From NCBI RefSeq assembly GCF_001477655.1, contig NZ_CP011266.1, positions 2,030,001 through 2,094,000 on the forward strand: DNA of 64,000 bases, given 5' to 3'. This document shows, in pieces, positions 51,478 to 59,437 of this stretch. Within the stretch, counting starts at the first letter, position 1. Each line of letters opens with the position of its first letter. A program made the position numbers and the translations under genes. Source of the DNA: Methanobrevibacter millerae. Lineage in GTDB: Archaea; Methanobacteriota; Methanobacteria; Methanobacteriales; Methanobacteriaceae. The notes under the pieces are model-generated. The model was not told where the DNA came from and ran no database searches. It worked only from the letters and a program-made list of their open reading frames with translations.

Positions 51478-52995
51478 ATGAAAGTTGTATGTTGTAAGAA
51501 CTGTGGTGCTAAATACCAACTCGATGATAATGACGATATTACATCATTTGAGTGTTCTTCATGTGCAGGTGACTTAGAACTTTTAGAAAATTATTCTAAT
51601 GAAAACTCACAAGGTCACGGTATATTAAGTTCAATAAAATATGATAATTCACAAATTGTTCAATGTGAGGATTGTGGATTGAAATATAAAATAAAGGCAA
51701 ATGACAATATACTGGACTACGAATGTGACAGCTGTGGAGGTTCTTTAAGATATCTTGATTCTGAAATGAATAAAGAATTAGATGAATATATTGATGAAAG
51801 AAAAAAAGAACTTGCTGAAATTAGAAAAAATCAACAGGAAACACCTGATGAGGAACAAAGTGCTGAAAATCAACACTCCATAAAATCCATTACTAATAAA
51901 CTTGAAACTTTCTTTTCAGAAGATGAAATGCAGAAAATTGCAGAAGAAGAGCTTGAAGAAGAAAAATTACAAGTTGAATATGCGCCAAGAACTGCAAGAA
52001 CAACAATTCCAAAACCGGTTTTATCAAAATTTGAAAAAGAATTTGCTGTTCCAAAATCCAATGATTATAATATATTAAAAAATTTCTTAAAAGATGAATT
52101 TTTTAAAGGCATGAAAGTATATTATCAGGACATACCTGAAAGAGAATCTTCAGGAATACTTGGAAACTTGAAAAGTAAATTAGTAATTAACGAACCAGGA
52201 GACGGAATCGTTTCAACTGATAGATTAGTTGATGATGGACCTGACTTTGACATGAAGAATTTATCAACAGATCACTATATCATCATTGCAGGTATTGTAA
52301 TATTTATTTTAAGCATAATAGAAGTCATATTAGTTAACAGTGGAGTAGGACTTGCAGCCTTATTAATTGCAATCGTCATTATAGCATTTGGATTTTATAG
52401 AACTAAAGATACACAGGAAACTACTGTTAGGACAAGAATTATTAGGGAACACTTGTTAACTTTACCTCAAGAGTATTATGTATTCTATAATGTAAAAACC
52501 CCAACTTCACCTGCTGGAATTAACCATGTTGTTGTTGGACCTACAGGAATCTATGCACTTCTTTCCCAAAAATATAATCCTAAAAATAGATTAAATTCTG
52601 AAAATGAAAATATTGAATTGATTAAATCTGCTGAAGCAGATGAAGCAAAATTCGAAATTGCAGATGTGGGAAACAGAAGACGATTTAGATATACAACAAA
52701 ACAAGCAAAATTTTCACAAGATAATGCCATAAAACAAAAAGCATTAACACTAGGCGAAGATTTAATTAATTTCCTTAATGACAATAATATTAGAAACTGT
52801 TTTGTAGAGCCCCTAGTCGGTTTTATTAACAATGAAGTTGTTGTAATAAATATGCCTTTGACTGATGAAGACTTATTTATTGATGAATTGCTAAATACTA
52901 TTCAAAATAGTACTATTAAATTAAATTCTGATACAATAGATAAATGTGCAGTATTGCTTAGCAAATACTCTGCAGATTGTTCTTCAGAATTTTAA
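51478..52995 (+). CDS. Zinc-ribbon, membrane and NERD-like protein
   Basis: The 505-residue protein starts with two short zinc ribbons: CKNCGAKY with CSSCAGDL, then CEDCGLKY with CDSCGGSL. A charged coiled-coil segment follows (about residues 95-170), then a conserved block, two hydrophobic helices near 263-305, and a C-terminal domain with EYYVFYNVKTPTSPAGINHVVVGPTGIYAL. This resembles the NERD (nuclease-related) domain core. The function is unknown; the layout suggests a membrane-tethered nucleic-acid or zinc-sensing protein. GAGGATATT precedes the ATG. An insertion sequence lies 20 bases downstream of the stop. Confidence 0.75.
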   Translation: MKVVCCKNCGAKYQLDDNDDITSFECSSCAGDLELLENYSNENSQGHGILSSIKYDNSQIVQCEDCGLKYKIKANDNILDYECDSCGGSLRYLDSEMNKELDEYIDERKKELAEIRKNQQETPDEEQSAENQHSIKSITNKLETFFSEDEMQKIAEEELEEEKLQVEYAPRTARTTIPKPVLSKFEKEFAVPKSNDYNILKNFLKDEFFKGMKVYYQDIPERESSGILGNLKSKLVINEPGDGIVSTDRLVDDGPDFDMKNLSTDHYIIIAGIVIFILSIIEVILVNSGVGLAALLIAIVIIAFGFYRTKDTQETTVRTRIIREHLLTLPQEYYVFYNVKTPTSPAGINHVVVGPTGIYALLSQKYNPKNRLNSENENIELIKSAEADEAKFEIADVGNRRRFRYTTKQAKFSQDNAIKQKALTLGEDLINFLNDNNIRNCFVEPLVGFINNEVVVINMPLTDEDLFIDELLNTIQNSTIKLNSDTIDKCAVLLSKYSADCSSEF

Positions 52996-53006
52996 TTTTA
53001 TTTTCT

Positions 53007-53032
53007 TTTTTTAATCATTCCTAGAAACTTAA
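53007..53032 (+). repeat. Left target duplication and inverted repeat of IS 2
   Basis: TTTTTTAAT at 53007-53015 is the 9-base target duplication. CATTCCTAGAAACTTAA at 53016-53032 is the terminal inverted repeat, 17 bases matching. Confidence 0.88.
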
Positions 53033-54773
53033 TATATTTTTGGATGAAATTTTTCATCATAATTGGTTTTTAATAACATTGTTATATTATTTTGGTATGG
53101 ATAATTGATTTTTCGTAAGTTTTTTATATTATTTGTGAACAAAAAATTAAACAAGATTTAAAAACTCACTAATTTTTGTGTGTTGAATTGTTGATTAGTG
53201 TGTTTTTTTCTTGTTTCCCGGATGTTTGTTATTAACATCTGGGGTTTTTCGCTCTTTTTCATCATATTGATGTTCTTCGTATTGTGTTAGTTCTTTGGAT
53301 GCTTCTTTTATTATAAAATCGATTATTTCTTCTCTTTTTGTTCTCGATCCAAATAGTATGTCAAAGAAGAATAAATAGATATTTCCTATTATTTTTGCGA
53401 AATTCGACTGATAAATTATTTTTTTATCTTTATTTCTGGGTGTTCTTGTTATATTGTTTTCTGCGTGGTTTTTTATGGTTATTGCTAGGTTATAAACGAA
53501 TATATGTGCGTAAAAATCTTGTTCGATTATTTGTCTTCGTATTCCGCTGAAATCTTCGATTTCGATGAGATTTTTTAATCTATCGAATCCTGTTTCTACT
53601 GTCCATCTTTTTGCATATAATTCTTTTAAATCTTCTGTTGAGAATTCTTCTGGTGTTAAATTTGTTGCTAGTATTTCTGGTTCTTCATTTCCAATATCTA
53701 TTAATGCTATTCTTATTTCTAATCGTCCCATTTTTCTTGCTTTTTCTTTTAAATTTTCATCATCAAATTTCTTTAATCTGTTGTTTGTCATGTTGATTTG
53801 TATTATTTCATCATTGGTTTTCATTTGTTTAATTTGATGTGCAAATACGTTTTTTGGTAGTCTTATTAAAAATTTTGAGTTCAAATCAATAGTTTTTGCC
53901 ATTAATTCGATTGATGGATAACCCCTGTCATAAATTGTAATTAATTTTGTGATGTCTAATCGTTGTTTTAAGTTATTTAGATGTTCTATTGCTAAATCAA
54001 TTTCATTTACTACTGTTTCAACAATTTTTACAGTTAAAATATGTTTGGAATGCACATCCAATACGCATGAAACTCTTGCACGAATTCTTTTTTCTTTTAA
54101 CAAGTTTTCATCACCAACAGGAAATTCTTCACGTGTTAAAGTAACATTTGGAAGATCAACAATACTCCCATCACACGCACTGACAATATATCCTTTAAAT
54201 TTTGAAAATCCTGGAAATTTGTTATATAATTCATCAATAAAACATTCATACATGTCAATAAACACTTTAGGGTCAATAAACATTCTCTGTTTTCCAATTC
54301 CCTGACTCGAAATCGTTTCAAAATCTTTCTTCATCCACATAGTAAAAAATCTAATCGTTTCAATATAACTAGTACAGCTCCTTTGGGAAAGAATAAATGC
54401 AGTATATTCTTTTTGAGTCATTTTTCTATCCCTAATAAATCGATTATCTTCAGTAATATATCTTTTTGATATAAAACACTCAAATAATCGAAAAAAATTT
54501 TTGATAAACCTATCAAAAGAATACATAAAATACTCCTCCAATTAACTAAATTCGTAATCAAAAAACTTCAATTACATATATAATTATATATAACTCATAA
54601 TATTTAAAATAAACTATTAATAATTATTAAAATAAGATATAAATAAATTAAAAGTAATTAAACAAGTATTAAAATAAATAACGTTTGATTCAATTAAAAT
54701 AAATAAAAATTAGATGTTTTCAATATTGAAAACATAGTTAAAAATAAGTTAAATCCTTAAGTTTCTAGGAATG
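53016..54773 (-). mobile_element. Complete IS4-family insertion sequence (IS 2)
   Basis: This 1758-base element has 17-base perfect terminal inverted repeats (CATTCCTAGAAACTTAA) and is flanked by the 9-base duplication TTTTTTAAT. It carries one minus-strand transposase gene. The 232-base leader inside the transposase-proximal end contains a perfect 22-base palindrome with half-site ATGTTTTCAAT at 54714-54735. Its repeats and protein differ from IS 1, so the two are separate elements. The insertion sits just after the zinc-ribbon/NERD gene without disrupting it. Confidence 0.92.
53195..54541 (-). CDS. IS4-family transposase of IS 2
   Basis: The 448-residue protein has the DDE core: SACDGSIVDLPN carries the first aspartate, LITIYDRGYPSIELMAKT the second, and the YREK signature is YAKRWTVETGFDRLK, fitting Y-(2)-R-(3)-E-(6)-K. 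The N-terminal region (TEDNRFIRDRKMTQKEYTAF) aligns with that of the other transposase. A second ATG five codons in (MYSFDRF) is the more likely start, as AGGAGTATTTT lies upstream of it. Confidence 0.93.
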   Translation of the reverse strand: MEEYFMYSFDRFIKNFFRLFECFISKRYITEDNRFIRDRKMTQKEYTAFILSQRSCTSYIETIRFFTMWMKKDFETISSQGIGKQRMFIDPKVFIDMYECFIDELYNKFPGFSKFKGYIVSACDGSIVDLPNVTLTREEFPVGDENLLKEKRIRARVSCVLDVHSKHILTVKIVETVVNEIDLAIEHLNNLKQRLDITKLITIYDRGYPSIELMAKTIDLNSKFLIRLPKNVFAHQIKQMKTNDEIIQINMTNNRLKKFDDENLKEKARKMGRLEIRIALIDIGNEEPEILATNLTPEEFSTEDLKELYAKRWTVETGFDRLKNLIEIEDFSGIRRQIIEQDFYAHIFVYNLAITIKNHAENNITRTPRNKDKKIIYQSNFAKIIGNIYLFFFDILFGSRTKREEIIDFIIKEASKELTQYEEHQYDEKERKTPDVNNKHPGNKKKTH

Positions 54774-54882
54774 TTTTTTAATGACAAATTAAATTAATAG
54801 TTTAATATAAAAATAGAATAATTCTAATACTAAAATCAATAATTATTAATCGAACAATTTATTCGAGCATATCATCTATGAA
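54542..54882. other. Gene-free stretch: IS 2 leader and right flank
   Basis: Positions 54542-54773 are the transposase leader inside IS 2, including the palindrome at 54714-54735. The target duplication follows at 54774-54782. Positions 54783-54882 are the chromosomal tail of the zinc-ribbon/TPR gene, A/T-rich with nothing else recognisable. Confidence 0.6.
54757..54782 (+). repeat. Right inverted repeat and target duplication of IS 2
   Basis: Positions 54757-54773 are the inverted copy of the left end, and TTTTTTAAT at 54774-54782 is the second duplication. Confidence 0.88.
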
Positions 54883-55584
54883 TCATTCTTCTTTTAATTT
54901 TTTCAAACAAAAATCCCATTTAGTCTTTGATGATGCACTAAGAGGAGAAATAATACTGGCTTTTTTAAAAAATTTGTCTGCTTCCAAATAATCTTTTTTA
55001 TCAAAATAAACTAAAGCCTTGCCATTTAATGCATCAAAGTTTTTATCATCTATGTTTAAAACGGAATCATAGACATCATTCGCATAATCCAAATCCCCTT
55101 TTAAAAATGATGCCCTTGCAATATATTCTCTAGCTTTAATATTATTTTCATTAAGAGCCAAACTGTTAATCAACTCTTCAATAGCTTCATCATATCTTCC
55201 TACATTAATTAAAGCTCTTCCTTTTAAGTAGTAAGCTTCCCAATTCCTTTCATCTATAACCAGTGCCTTATTACAAAGATGTATTACTCTTTGATTATCT
55301 CCAGAATTTTCTAATTTTTTTCTGGCACGGTAAATATAGAATTCATCCCTATTCAATGCCTTTTTAGAATTTTTGGAAAAATCATCAAATGCATCCCCAA
55401 TATCAATATCATCCAACATTTCTAAAGTATTATTTTTTAAATGATTCATATCATCCAAAAACTGATTAAAAATAGATTCAACAAAGTATTCAGTATCTTC
55501 AGGATTTTTTAATTCATTTCCACATTCGGGACATACTTTTTCATAGCCTTCCAATTTATAACCGCATTCATGACAAAATTTCAT
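54883..55584 (-). CDS. Zinc-ribbon TPR-repeat protein
   Basis: The 233-residue protein starts with a zinc ribbon (CHECGYKL with CPECGNEL), continues with an acidic helical region, and ends in about four tetratricopeptide repeats (WEAYYLKGRALINVGRYDEA; KAREYIARASFLKGDLDYA; FDALNGKALVYFDKKDYLEA). Such proteins are common scaffolds in methanogens; the partner is unknown. The frame is open to a TTG at 55594-55596, but GGTGGTGA lies directly before the ATG at 55582-55584, which is therefore the start. It follows neuB by 22 bases on the same strand. Confidence 0.85.
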   Translation of the reverse strand: MKFCHECGYKLEGYEKVCPECGNELKNPEDTEYFVESIFNQFLDDMNHLKNNTLEMLDDIDIGDAFDDFSKNSKKALNRDEFYIYRARKKLENSGDNQRVIHLCNKALVIDERNWEAYYLKGRALINVGRYDEAIEELINSLALNENNIKAREYIARASFLKGDLDYANDVYDSVLNIDDKNFDALNGKALVYFDKKDYLEADKFFKKASIISPLSASSKTKWDFCLKKLKEE

Positions 55585-55606
55585 GTTCACCACCAAAAAT
55601 TATTCA

Positions 55607-56626
55607 TTATCCAATCATGTCAAAATCAATTAATGTATCTTTTGAAATATCCACCAAAGCGGTTTTACCAATAACTTCATTAATTTTTGCAGGAGCTATT
55701 CCAGTTCCCGGCATTTTAAATGCTATTAAATCAGCCGTAATTTTTTCACCTTTTTTAATATCCTGAATTAAAACAATAGAACGTCTAGATTCACGCTTTG
55801 AAGAAGACTCGCAAATCAAAGGTTGTTTGTTTTTCATTCCACTAATCTGAGATAAAAAACCAATATTTGTTTTGAAAATCATCACATCCTCCGGATCCAT
55901 AGAATGATTATGGTCATTTCCTGGAAGAGATTTATCTAGAGTAAAATGCTTTTCTATAATTCCTGCACCATAATTATAGGCAGTAGTTAAAACAAACATG
56001 TTTAAATCAGGTTTAGTGTGATCAGAATATCCTATCTCATAATCAGGAAAACTTTGAGCCAAATCCTTAATCATTGCCAAATTAGCATCCTTATATTCTG
56101 TAGGATATGCCAATACTGAATGCATAATGGCAATATCTACAGTTGATACTTCTTCAATAGCCCTGACAGCTTGTTTAACTTCATTTAATGTTGCAGCACC
56201 AGTTAACAACAACATAGGTTTATTTTTCTTTGCAATATATTGGATAAAAGGAATATTTGTTAAATCAGATGATGAAATTGGATAAATATCCATAAATTCA
56301 TCCAAATAATCTGCAGATTCAAAATCTAGTGGTGTTGATAAAAATCTTATTTTTAACTCATTACAATAATCAGACAATTCACGAAACTCTTCCCGTCCGA
56401 ATTTATCATATTTTTTAAATAAATCAAACTGATCAGTAGATTCTGCAGAAATAATGTTTTCAGTTTTGTATGATTCAAATTTAACAGCATCAACACCAGC
56501 TTTTTTAGCTTCCAAAATCATTAGTTTAGCCGCATCTATTTCAGAAATATCTTCCTTTTGAGCGATATCATAGTAATTAACACCAACATCAGCAATTAAA
56601 AATGGCTTTTTATAAAAAATATTCAT
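55607..56626 (-). CDS. neuB: N-acetylneuraminate-type synthase (nonulosonic acid synthase)
   Basis: The 339-residue protein is a NeuB-family enzyme: FLIADVGVNYYDIAQKED at the start, GVDAVKFESYKTENIIS, LSTPLDFESADYLDEF, the EIGYSDHTKPDLNMFVLTTAYNYGAGIIEKHFTLDKSLPGNDHNHSMDPE core with metal and phosphate ligands, and a C-terminal SAF-like domain (RRSIVLIQDIKKGEKIT). It condenses a hexose derivative with phosphoenolpyruvate. Whether the product is sialic, legionaminic or pseudaminic acid is open, but the PseG part of its neighbour favours a trideoxy sugar. The start is ATG 56624-56626, after AGGTGA. Confidence 0.9.
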   Translation of the reverse strand: MNIFYKKPFLIADVGVNYYDIAQKEDISEIDAAKLMILEAKKAGVDAVKFESYKTENIISAESTDQFDLFKKYDKFGREEFRELSDYCNELKIRFLSTPLDFESADYLDEFMDIYPISSSDLTNIPFIQYIAKKNKPMLLLTGAATLNEVKQAVRAIEEVSTVDIAIMHSVLAYPTEYKDANLAMIKDLAQSFPDYEIGYSDHTKPDLNMFVLTTAYNYGAGIIEKHFTLDKSLPGNDHNHSMDPEDVMIFKTNIGFLSQISGMKNKQPLICESSSKRESRRSIVLIQDIKKGEKITADLIAFKMPGTGIAPAKINEVIGKTALVDISKDTLIDFDMIG

Positions 56627-56634
56627 TTTTTCAC

Positions 56635-58314
56635 CTAATGATTTTGCTCGAATTGACGAGCCCAATATTTCTGTTCAACAGCAGACCAGATATTTTCAAA
56701 TCCATGTTTCAAATCAACGCTTTTCATCAAATTACTCATATTTTGCCTTAAATCAAAATCCTGCCAAACAATTTTAAACTGTTTTGTAATATCTTCATTG
56801 GATAATGTTTCTGCAAGGCCCATGTTAATAAATCCGTTTTTATGAGACCCGAATTCATGTGTTTGTTCTCTTCCATTCTGACAAATGCAAATACATGGTG
56901 TTCCAACAGCACAGACTTCATACATTTTTCTGCCGGCAGATGAAAATACTATGTCCGCACGTAGCATGAACTCACTGATGTTATTTACATTAGTGTAAAC
57001 CTGAACATTGTTGTTTGATTCATATTTTTGAATGAATTCATTTTTATTTTCATATCCCAATGGTAAAATTACATCAATTCTTCCAGCAAAACCACTATCC
57101 AAAACAGAGTCCGCTACTTTTTCAGAGAGATTATTTATATCATTTCCACCAAATGCAAGCAAAACAGTATTCACATCAGGACCTACAATTTTTGACGGCT
57201 GAAAATAAAATTCGTCTCTCAGCACATAATATTGATATCCGCTAAAGATATTTCCAAATCCACCATTATGCTCGTATAAAGTATCAAATACAACATCCGC
57301 ATCTTCAGACCCGGAACCAAGGTCTTCAAAGTTAATTACAAAATAACCTGCTTCCTTTTGACGGCAGACATATTCTTTAGTAGTATCCAATATATCATTC
57401 ACAACAATATGGGGATTGAATTCATTTAATAATGAGAATAATTCGTCTTCGCCATCATAGACCTTGAAAGGGTAATTGAAACCTTTAACAATATCAATGC
57501 CCAATGAAGAATTTTCATCAAGTAAAAATAAAACATCATCACTCAATAATCTTGAAGCAAGAGAAATGCAGCGATAAATATGACCAATGCCTATTACGTT
57601 ATTTGCATTAACTACCATAGCAATTTTTTTCTTATTCAAATATTTTTCAGCAACCCACCAGTCTTCAAATGATGTAATATCAATACTCTCTTCACGAGAA
57701 ACTTCAATCAAATCGACATTATTACCCAAACGAGAATTAGGGGTTATGAATGAACGCCTTGTTGCAAAAATACCTCCAGTTTCAATATACTCTTTAGGAA
57801 GATATTGCTGATTAAGCCTTTCAGAATATAATGGGAAAAAACGATTATCCTTTTCATTAAAACCCCAACTCAAATGCTTATCCCCAATGACGGAAATAAC
57901 AGTATCAATATCAAAATTTTTAAATTTTTCAATAGCTTTGTCAAGTGTTTCAGTTCTTAAAAGAGGTGATGTTGTCTGGAGCGTTATTACAATATCATAC
58001 TCATCAAAAGCTAGTTTTTCTTTTTGAACAGTTGCATCAAAAACTACTGGGTCAATTGGAATCTGGTCTCCGGCCAAATCGGGAGAACGTCTAATGACAC
58101 TAGCTCCAAATTTTTCAGCGATCTTTGAAGTTTCAGGGTCTTCAGTTGATACTACAACATCATCAACATACTGTGAAGATTTTGCTATATTGATTGCATA
58201 ATAGATTAATGGCTTATCAGCGAGTAAACGAATATTTTTGCGGCGAATTCTTTTTGAACCACCTCTCGCAGGAATTACTACCAATATTTTATTGTCGTTA
58301 AACATGTTAATCAC
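56635..58314 (-). CDS. Fused CMP-nonulosonate cytidylyltransferase (NeuA) and PseG-like hydrolase
   Basis: Two enzymes are joined in 559 residues. Residues 1-225 are NeuA-like: nucleotide-binding IPARGGSKRIRRKNI (about 14-28), LQTTSPLLR (about 112-120), IETGGIFATRR. Residues about 231-559 are PseG-like, a GT-B fold. In this part VNANNVIGIGHIYRCISLASRL takes the place of the usual DGS-GxGHxxR start, FGGND lies in the middle, and FSSAGRKMYEVCAVGTPCI near the end. PseG removes UDP from an activated altropyranose, and NeuA activates the finished acid with CTP. The gene is followed after 8 bases by neuB. Both GTG 58312-58314 and ATG 58303-58305 are possible starts. Confidence 0.9.
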   Translation of the reverse strand: MINMFNDNKILVVIPARGGSKRIRRKNIRLLADKPLIYYAINIAKSSQYVDDVVVSTEDPETSKIAEKFGASVIRRSPDLAGDQIPIDPVVFDATVQKEKLAFDEYDIVITLQTTSPLLRTETLDKAIEKFKNFDIDTVISVIGDKHLSWGFNEKDNRFFPLYSERLNQQYLPKEYIETGGIFATRRSFITPNSRLGNNVDLIEVSREESIDITSFEDWWVAEKYLNKKKIAMVVNANNVIGIGHIYRCISLASRLLSDDVLFLLDENSSLGIDIVKGFNYPFKVYDGEDELFSLLNEFNPHIVVNDILDTTKEYVCRQKEAGYFVINFEDLGSGSEDADVVFDTLYEHNGGFGNIFSGYQYYVLRDEFYFQPSKIVGPDVNTVLLAFGGNDINNLSEKVADSVLDSGFAGRIDVILPLGYENKNEFIQKYESNNNVQVYTNVNNISEFMLRADIVFSSAGRKMYEVCAVGTPCICICQNGREQTHEFGSHKNGFINMGLAETLSNEDITKQFKIVWQDFDLRQNMSNLMKSVDLKHGFENIWSAVEQKYWARQFEQNH

Positions 58315-58390: not shown

Positions 58391-59437
58391 ATGAAAAATA
58401 TGTCAAAAGAACTATTGGATAGAATTAATAAATTAGCAACACCCGTTAAAATAATGCACGTATGCGGTTCACACGAACACACTATAATGGAAAACGGTAT
58501 TAGAAGCCTGTTACCTGATGAAGTGGAAATTGTAGCAGGTCCCGGTTGTCCCGTATGTGTTGTTCCATCCCGTGAGATAGACGAATGTTTGGAGTTAGTT
58601 GAGAAAGGAGTGACAATAACCACTTTTGGAGATATGTTAAGAGTGCCTGGATCAAACGGCTCCCTTGCAGATGCTAAAGCTGAAGGCGGTGATGTAAGAA
58701 TCGTTTATGGAATAAATAAAGCTATTGAAATAGCTGAAAAAGAAGACAATGATGTTGTATTCATGGCAGCGGGCTTTGAAACAACTGCACCTACAACAGC
58801 TGCTGAAATACTTGCAACACCACCTGAAAACTTCTCAGTATTATCCTGCCACAGATTAATACCTCCAGCAATTGATTTTTTAATCAATTCCGGACAAACA
58901 AGTTTAAACGCATTGATTCAGCCAGGACATGTATGTACAATCATTGGAACTAAACCGTTTGAATATTTTTCCACTGATTTCGGCATTCCACAGGCCGTAG
59001 CAGGATTTAATCCATTAGATATTTTAATGTCAGTCTATATGATTTTAAGACAAATACATAATGAAACACCAAAAATAGACAATGAATATGCAAGAGCAGT
59101 AAGGGAAGAAGGGAATGAAATTGCAACAGAAATGATTGATGAAGTGTTTGATGTTGCAAGCAGAGAATGGAGAGGATTTCCTAAAATACCAAATTCAGTT
59201 TTAGAAATCAAAGACGAATTTGCAGAATTCAATGCCCGTGAAAAATATGATATAGAAGTTAAAGACGTTAAAGAGGCACCGAAAGGATGTATCTGCGGAC
59301 CTATTTTAAGAGGCCTTGCAAGACCTGAAGACTGTAAACTATTTAGAAATGAATGTAATCCACTTCATCCGATTGGAGCATGTATGGTAAGTAAAGAGGG
59401 AACCTGCAATATTGCACACAGATATTCAAGAAGGTAG
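58391..59437 (+). CDS. hypD: Hydrogenase maturation protein HypD
   Basis: The 348-residue protein is HypD. It has the CGSHEHTIMENGIRSLLP motif (about residues 21-38), the cysteine segment GPGCPVCVVPSREID (about 51-65), FMAAGFETTAPTTAAEI, and a C-terminal cysteine-rich cluster-binding region with GCICGPILRG and later CNPLHPIGACMVSKEGTC. It is the scaffold on which the Fe(CN)2CO group of [NiFe]-hydrogenase is built. The ATG follows TTGGTGTTAAA, and an A/T-rich inverted repeat lies at 58350-58375. The phosphoglycolate phosphatase gene follows after 4 bases. Confidence 0.97.
   Translation: MKNMSKELLDRINKLATPVKIMHVCGSHEHTIMENGIRSLLPDEVEIVAGPGCPVCVVPSREIDECLELVEKGVTITTFGDMLRVPGSNGSLADAKAEGGDVRIVYGINKAIEIAEKEDNDVVFMAAGFETTAPTTAAEILATPPENFSVLSCHRLIPPAIDFLINSGQTSLNALIQPGHVCTIIGTKPFEYFSTDFGIPQAVAGFNPLDILMSVYMILRQIHNETPKIDNEYARAVREEGNEIATEMIDEVFDVASREWRGFPKIPNSVLEIKDEFAEFNAREKYDIEVKDVKEAPKGCICGPILRGLARPEDCKLFRNECNPLHPIGACMVSKEGTCNIAHRYSRR

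Follow-up and report, generated by a model that had tools for sequence, protein, structure and literature searches.

Can a gene pair that resembles the core of a sialic-acid-type pathway still make such a sugar in a rumen methanogen? The question is raised by a short cassette in a 64,000-nucleotide stretch of DNA (the window; Methanobrevibacter millerae, contig NZ_CP011266.1, positions 2,030,001 to 2,094,000), where a gene encoding a cytidine monophosphate (CMP)-nonulosonic acid (NulO) synthetase-like N-terminal half fused to a PseG-like C-terminal half (CSS-PseG, or the fusion) is followed by a gene for a NeuB-type synthase. An original prediction made from the letters of the window correctly described the two domains fused in one protein, NeuB directly behind them and the lack of other pathway enzymes nearby; its picture of a minimal functioning cassette with a part in surface mimicry is not borne out, given the active-site losses and the disappearance of a putative transferase and a flippase described here. 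We consider it fairly probable, on the evidence of sequence comparisons, that the fusion is a pseudoenzyme kept for a non-catalytic role after loss of its operon, and that the same holds less strictly for NeuB.

Active sites of the fusion and of NeuB

Both halves of the fusion are recognizable. Pfam CTP_transf_3 matches residues 12-136 (1.6e-24), identifying a CMP-sugar synthetase domain, and this domain also finds PDB entry 6ifd (1.1e-24). The NCBIfam profiles PseF (114.9 bits) and PseG (113 bits) match significantly over the two domains of Table 1, below their cut-offs of 205.7 and 153.55 bits, whereas the PseG half in a putative M. ruminantium genome scores 158.7 bits. The longest open reading frame (ORF; 56635-58314, minus strand) begins with GTG at 58314 and encodes 559 residues; an in-frame ATG three codons further on, at 58305, is the start in relatives and gives 556 residues. 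NeuB, listed from a TTG at 56665, has the start used by relatives at the ATG at 56626, behind AGGTGA. No second NeuB was found in the genome, a single contig of 2,543,538 bp. The protein carries both NeuB and SAF domains with the predicted fold of a NeuB-type synthase (predicted local distance difference test, pLDDT, 92; template modelling score, TM-score, 0.83 to PDB entry 1xuu). The NeuB_NnaB profile outscores PseI on this protein, both below cut-off (263/399.65 and 199.9/340.25 bits, respectively). The frames of both genes are open, with no stops or frameshifts of the pseudogene type.

Residues are numbered here as in the Neisseria enzymes, from which catalytic roles are transferred. Like N-acetylneuraminate synthase (TIGR03569; Neisseria NeuB, 1xuu), with which it shares 29% identity, the window NeuB combines a triosephosphate isomerase (TIM) barrel with a SAF domain and keeps K53, His215, His236 and Asp247; unlike Neisseria NeuB, it carries the substitutions E25D, Q55E, K129P and R314M. 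His215 and His236 are presumably metal ligands. The fusion resembles CMP-NulO synthetases (NeuA/PseF) and PseG in having both domains, the RGGSK and KN motifs, R12, K21, N22, Q104, Asp209 and the histidine of the PseG motif GxGHxxR (GIGHIYR in the window), which we take to be catalytic. It differs from stand-alone NeuA/PseF and PseG in being fused and in having Thr in place of Asp211, leaving one of the two Mg-binding Asp residues. The D211A change lowers kcat of Neisseria CMP-N-acetylneuraminic acid synthetase 15,000-fold (PMC2901514), and E25, Q55, K129 and R314 line the active site of Neisseria NeuB, of which the R314A variant is recounted as inactive and R314K as active (PMC6795526). Catalytic loss in both parts, which the original prediction had itself named as counting against it, is largely what we find, in NeuB at K129, R314, E25 and Q55 and in the synthetase half at Asp211, with the PseG histidine being kept.

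The alignment took in 84 fusions and 74 cognate NeuB proteins, all from fetched loci and including 21 of the 31 fusions seen outside the genus, together with 13 canonical NeuB sequences; loss was scored at 18 core catalytic columns of our own choosing. Most relatives are metagenome-assembled genomes. The window's genus (g1) contributes 67 genomes, four of which (G043, G053, G067 and G068) yielded no whole fusion; G053 and G067 enter by NeuB alone, giving 65 scored genomes. No core column is lost in 16 of these and at least one in 49, with a single loss only in G062 and G071, and the active sites decay in differing, lineage-specific ways: the PseG histidine kept in the window is lost in its close sister genomes G050, G080, G057 and G070. 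Outside the genus, 20 fusions and 19 NeuB proteins are intact; the 21st fusion, from G002, shows losses, lies in a genome from which cognate NeuB and the gene c14 (see below) are gone, and was set apart. Canonical and outgroup NeuB proteins keep K53, Q55, K129, His215, His236, Asp247 and R314 (with one unread K53, in G103), E25 being Asp in two canonical rows. Among cells invariant in the outgroup, catalytic ones have changed in 162 of 471 cases in the fusion, versus 906 of 6147 for the others (about 2.3-fold), and in 114 of 305 versus 854 of 4413 in NeuB (about 1.9-fold), some of the non-catalytic columns probably being ligand-binding as well. Sequencing error is an unlikely source of the NeuB substitutions, as the same residues are changed in sister genomes.

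The original prediction had further remarked that the Asp before the PseG motif is missing (VNANN) and had supposed that specificity could be altered. The absence is real, and it is no mark of altered specificity because most intact members of the genus also carry Asn at this site (14 of the 15 g1 fusions free of core-column loss, G040 having Asp). As in pseudoenzymes generally (review PMC10211241), conserved catalytic motifs are missing from the sequence; unlike the general case, the losses here strike two adjacent proteins, and three active sites, together and repeatedly within one genus.

Operon neighbours, parallel loss and selection

The surroundings of the cassette were compared across 26 long-flank loci, of which 13 have intact active sites and the other 13 include the window. 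In 12 of the 13 intact loci the fusion and NeuB are followed by c14 (about 480 residues) and c13, a Wzx-type flippase (PF01943), and eight of the 13 also hold c17, a hexapeptide acyltransferase; a few loci have extra inserted genes. The sole intact locus lacking c14, that of G005 from outside the genus, has it on another contig. All three genes are missing from all 13 other loci, and the gene c5 is kept on that side in all 13. In related genera the fusion mostly heads an operon with NeuB, c14 and the flippase, and it is the absence of this putative transferase and of the flippase that makes the window's cassette look minimal. No homologue of c14 was found in a search of the whole window genome; c13 and c17 are absent at the window locus, no genome-wide search having been made for these two. 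Across the family, c14 is present in 46 of 138 genomes.

Sequence searches with c14 gave no match in Pfam or NCBIfam for the two members tried against each, nor in the PDB for the one member tried. Its predicted model (pLDDT 89) has a glycosyltransferase-B (GT-B) fold closest to NeuC/UDP-GlcNAc 2-epimerases and to TarL/TagF, with query-length TM-scores of 0.35-0.47 among the 50 matches listed. This points to a putative glycosyltransferase, and c14 is a candidate for a new family of NulO transferases. Genes of this family (L043:6265-7689, minus strand, and relatives) also lie near CSS-PseG-NeuB modules in archaea and in three deltaproteobacterial metagenome-assembled genomes (L215, L218 and L219).

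Within the genus, c14 is present in 14 genomes with intact active sites and in one with decayed sites, and absent from two intact and 48 decayed genomes (Fisher p 3e-11, uncorrected for relatedness). Relatedness was addressed with a tree of 74 rows, built by a quick method from the fusion itself plus one neighbour gene, HypD, with the catalytic columns removed. On this tree c14 presence changes 11 times, nine of them forced by well-supported branches (still 11, eight forced, without G002; 10 inside g1 alone), and there are 12 changes at Asp211, 11 at the PseG histidine and seven each at K129 and E25. Independent pairs differing in c14 (n = 9) give a mean of 8.3 concordant and no discordant outcomes (sign test, median p 0.008); without G002 these values become n = 8, 7.3 and 0, with a median p of 0.016 (0.008-0.06). 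Parsimony counts gains and losses together; since c14 is found at a single position and in a single gene order, we take its changes to be losses. On this reading c14 was lost in parallel at least eight times in the genus, with active-site losses in step.

The fusion has nevertheless been retained. Among the 41 g1 genomes that are at least 90% complete, it is full length in all 41, whereas cognate NeuB is present in 37 and c14 in eight. Ratios of nonsynonymous to synonymous substitution (dN/dS; Nei-Gojobori counts) for close pairs, hand-picked from the closest, are 0.06-0.18 for decayed fusions (15 pairs, a 16th being saturated) and 0.06-0.17 for decayed NeuB (12 pairs), as compared with 0.04-0.17 and 0.02-0.17 in 13 intact pairs and 0-0.11 for the HypD control. 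For G041 and G037, which have losses in common and both lack cognate NeuB, dN/dS of the fusion is 0.079, and neutral simulation (n = 300) predicts on average 12 in-frame stops along one branch where none is seen. Purifying selection is thus evident in the close pairs, which carry the argument because values over all pairs (dS 0.2-1.6) are inflated by saturation, similarly in both classes; over all pairs selection is weaker, with dN/dS still below 1. Loss of operon genes and of residues, its repetition, the purifying selection and the retention can all be read from the sequences themselves, and with open frames under continuing selection the fusion, and less strictly NeuB, would best be seen as pseudoenzymes.

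Pathway partners, distant relatives and flanking features

In a genome search of the kind that the original prediction had proposed, none of the PseB, PseC and PseH profiles reaches its cut-off anywhere in the window genome (294/408, 346/423.5 and 20.8/93.1 bits); the same is true of NeuC, with a sub-threshold match of 101/236 bits. The PseG, PseF and PseI scores given above likewise fail to place the cassette in the pseudaminic pathway. A sub-threshold PseB/PseC-like pair lies at 1.193-1.195 Mb, about 0.9 Mb from the cassette, with no NulO genes adjoining. This orphan pair (L039:9186-11376; C1:1193185-1195375) consists of a PseB/FnlA-like dehydratase and a PseC-like aminotransferase without recognized glycan genes among the ORFs listed around it, and several relatives have similar dehydratases near a second, canonical NeuB. 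A Pse or Leg pathway dispersed through the genome was considered and rejected, the searches having yielded only this pair, two more sub-threshold PseC matches and the sub-threshold NeuC match.

PseB exceeds its cut-off in 15 of the 138 family genomes. In one of them, a 1,853,160-bp genome that we take to be M. smithii ATCC 35061, PseB is the first gene of an operon that also holds PseC-like, cytidylyltransferase-like, PseG-like and NeuB/PseI-like genes (L059:5577-11012), the PseC and cytidylyltransferase labels having been assigned by eye and those of PseG and NeuB by search matches. Its PseG-like protein, at 465 residues, has room for a second domain, perhaps a PseH-like one. The fusion lies elsewhere in this genome, without a cognate NeuB. 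Extracts of M. smithii are reported to contain pseudaminic acid (Lewis 2009, as recounted in PMC6137143), and this finding is better explained by the separate Pse-type operon than by the fusion cassette. A term search of four further sources (PMC4987999, PMC2812497, PMC3746419 and PMC13135261) showed that one of them, a paper on M. ruminantium, mentions predicted sialic acid biosynthesis genes, and returned nothing on NulOs from the other three. Our searches of the open PMC literature, by title and abstract opening, listed none that deals with decayed enzymes of NulO synthesis in Methanobrevibacter.

The fusion is old, and is neither new nor restricted to the genus; the idea that it is unique to Methanobrevibacter was rejected, the same fusion being present in archaea and in bacteria of other phyla. 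In a survey of the 138 family genomes (17 genus codes, matches counted at E <= 0.001), the fusion query matches 107 and the NeuB query 100, many of them weakly, and full-length close relatives occur in eight of the 17 codes (g1, g3, g5-g9 and g11). In a search beyond the genus, 80 of 92 relatives were fetched, and 19 of these loci represent different phyla or orders (Chloroflexi, Deltaproteobacteria, Thermococci, Methanomicrobiales, Argoarchaeum and others); their fusions are 41-47% identical to an intact fusion from Methanobrevibacter used as query and 37-44% identical to that of the window. These modules are like the window in having the same fusion with NeuB nearby (18 of 19, the last locus reaching a contig end), and unlike it in that E25, Q55, K129 and R314 of NeuB are all kept in the 16 aligned. 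Several also hold a pyruvyltransferase-like gene, a flippase or a c14-like protein. A protein of the PS_pyruv_trans cluster occurs in CSS-PseG-NeuB loci L215, L218, L226, L231, L232, L234 and L235 (PF04230 confirmed for L218 and L226, the only two tested), which suggests that the NulO glycan of those lineages is pyruvylated or modified in some other way.

At the site of the lost operon genes the window has what is probably a complete insertion element of the IS4 family, with 20-nucleotide inverted repeats (53013-53032 and 54757-54776) that are 95% complementary. It probably arrived later, because only the window has it among the 26 loci. In one relative, c5 has a sub-threshold match to NERD.

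Table 1. Positions of the cassette, its altered and kept catalytic codons, and neighbouring features in the window
Feature	Position	Strand	Remark
CSS-PseG fusion (CMP-NulO synthetase-like N-half, PseG-like C-half)	56635..58305	(-)	probable ATG start
CMP-sugar synthetase domain, PseF/NeuA-like	57646..58281	(-)	residues 12-223 of the 559-residue ORF
Thr codon, fusion residue 214, at the place of Mg-ligand Asp211 (Neisseria numbering)	57673..57675	(-)	alignment
PseG-like hydrolase domain	56878..57627	(-)	residues 230-479
PseG-type His245 codon (GIGHIYR), kept	57580..57582	(-)	alignment
NeuB-type synthase with SAF domain	55607..56626	(-)	339 residues from ATG; predicted Neisseria NeuB-like fold
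NeuB E25 site: Asp	56588..56590	(-)	alignment
NeuB Q55 site: Glu	56474..56476	(-)	alignment
NeuB K129 site: Pro	56279..56281	(-)	alignment
NeuB R314 site (SAF domain): Met	55712..55714	(-)	alignment
NeuB-to-c5 gap, place of c14/c13/c17 in intact loci	52996..55606	.	tetratricopeptide repeat (TPR) gene and IS4-family element in the window
IS4-family transposase gene	53195-54541	(-)	inside element 53013-54776
c5, 505 residues, conserved beside the cassette in many genomes	51478-52995	(+)	zinc-ribbon-like cysteines (by eye)
HypD, conserved divergent flank, control gene	58391..59437	(+)	

Competing explanations and significance

In the course of events that we propose, CSS-PseG, NeuB, c14, the c13 flippase and often c17 would have formed an ancestral NulO glycan operon, with CSS-PseG freeing the sugar from its uridine diphosphate (UDP) form and charging the finished NulO with CMP, and NeuB performing the phosphoenolpyruvate condensation. 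Loss of c14, as the presumed NulO transferase, would have come first, in the window's rumen methanogen lineage and in at least seven others of the genus, leaving the pathway without an outlet; the synthetase, PseG and NeuB parts would then have lost catalytic residues in parallel, and the proteins would have been kept by continuing selection as scaffold, partner or regulator. We infer that activity has been abolished and that the role so kept is non-catalytic. With less assurance, we suggest that CSS-PseG may already have had a second, non-catalytic function in the Methanobrevibacter ancestor, preserving the fusion when many lineages, that of M. smithii included, independently dropped the sugar pathway and the three active sites became free to decay.

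Several observations weigh against this account. G045 keeps c14 and has a decayed NeuB; G040 and G084 are intact without c14, as is the locus of G005, outside the genus, with c14 on another contig. In G045 (L026, L157) c14 and the flippase are kept, NeuB lacks His215, His236 and Asp247, and the fusion lacks the PseG histidine, reflecting either very recent decay or a mixed assembly. Constraint is somewhat relaxed, with all-pairs median dN/dS of 0.26 in decayed versus 0.24 in intact fusions (maximum among the decayed, 0.69) and 0.22 versus 0.17 in NeuB. NeuB is gone in several lineages, the fusion of G043 (66% complete) is broken across reading frames within a single contig, and none is seen in G068 (77% complete). 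The wider family can do without the kept role, because G010 (outside the genus, 94% complete) shows neither fusion, cognate NeuB nor c14. A gained conserved motif was sought in the decayed proteins, and none was found beyond one Ile/Val. Finally, the PseG histidine and Asp209 of the window leave room for some activity.

The chief alternative, which we regard as unlikely, is that the enzymes lost their function once the transferase was gone and are slowly decaying, with no new role and with open frames reflecting recent or partial relaxation. The many different modes of active-site loss and the mildly raised dN/dS would fit such decay, as would the absence of cognate NeuB from the putative M. 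smithii genome, the broken frames of NeuB in G080 and of the fusion in the incomplete G043, and some genomes outside the genus without any of these genes; yet pairs with shared losses have dN/dS far below 1, the expected stops are not seen, and the fusion persists in every near-complete g1 genome despite losses of its neighbours at the same place. That catalysis instead persists on another substrate, or through one domain (the PseG half, for instance, as a UDP-sugar hydrolase) with altered sites, seems to us improbable. The good predicted fold of NeuB and the catalytic residues that the window keeps in both proteins speak for it, but the losses differ by lineage without any new conserved active-site residue, sister genomes have lost the PseG histidine, and changes of the D211A and R314A type are crippling in Neisseria. 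Least probable is a working minimal NulO cassette that makes a sialic-acid mimic from precursors supplied by dispersed genes. Its domains and gene order are right, a PseB/PseC-like pair exists and pseudaminic acid is reported from M. smithii, but the active-site losses, the lack of a c14 homologue in the genome and of PseB, PseC, PseH or NeuC above cut-off, and the separate Pse-type operon of the putative M. smithii genome, where no cognate NeuB adjoins the fusion, all argue against it.

If the pseudoenzyme reading is correct, a gene pair that can be annotated as a sialic-acid-type module in many gut methanogens makes no such sugar, and predictions of host mimicry based on NeuA/NeuB annotation in the genus would need checking species by species, with the pseudaminic acid reported from M. 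smithii being set apart from the fusion cassette. The genus offers a natural experiment, with at least eight parallel pathway losses, nearly all accompanied by active-site loss, and with the fusion retained, so that a hidden second function could be searched for by comparing intact with decayed species. M. smithii, a dominant human gut archaeon, would then carry such a pseudoenzyme.

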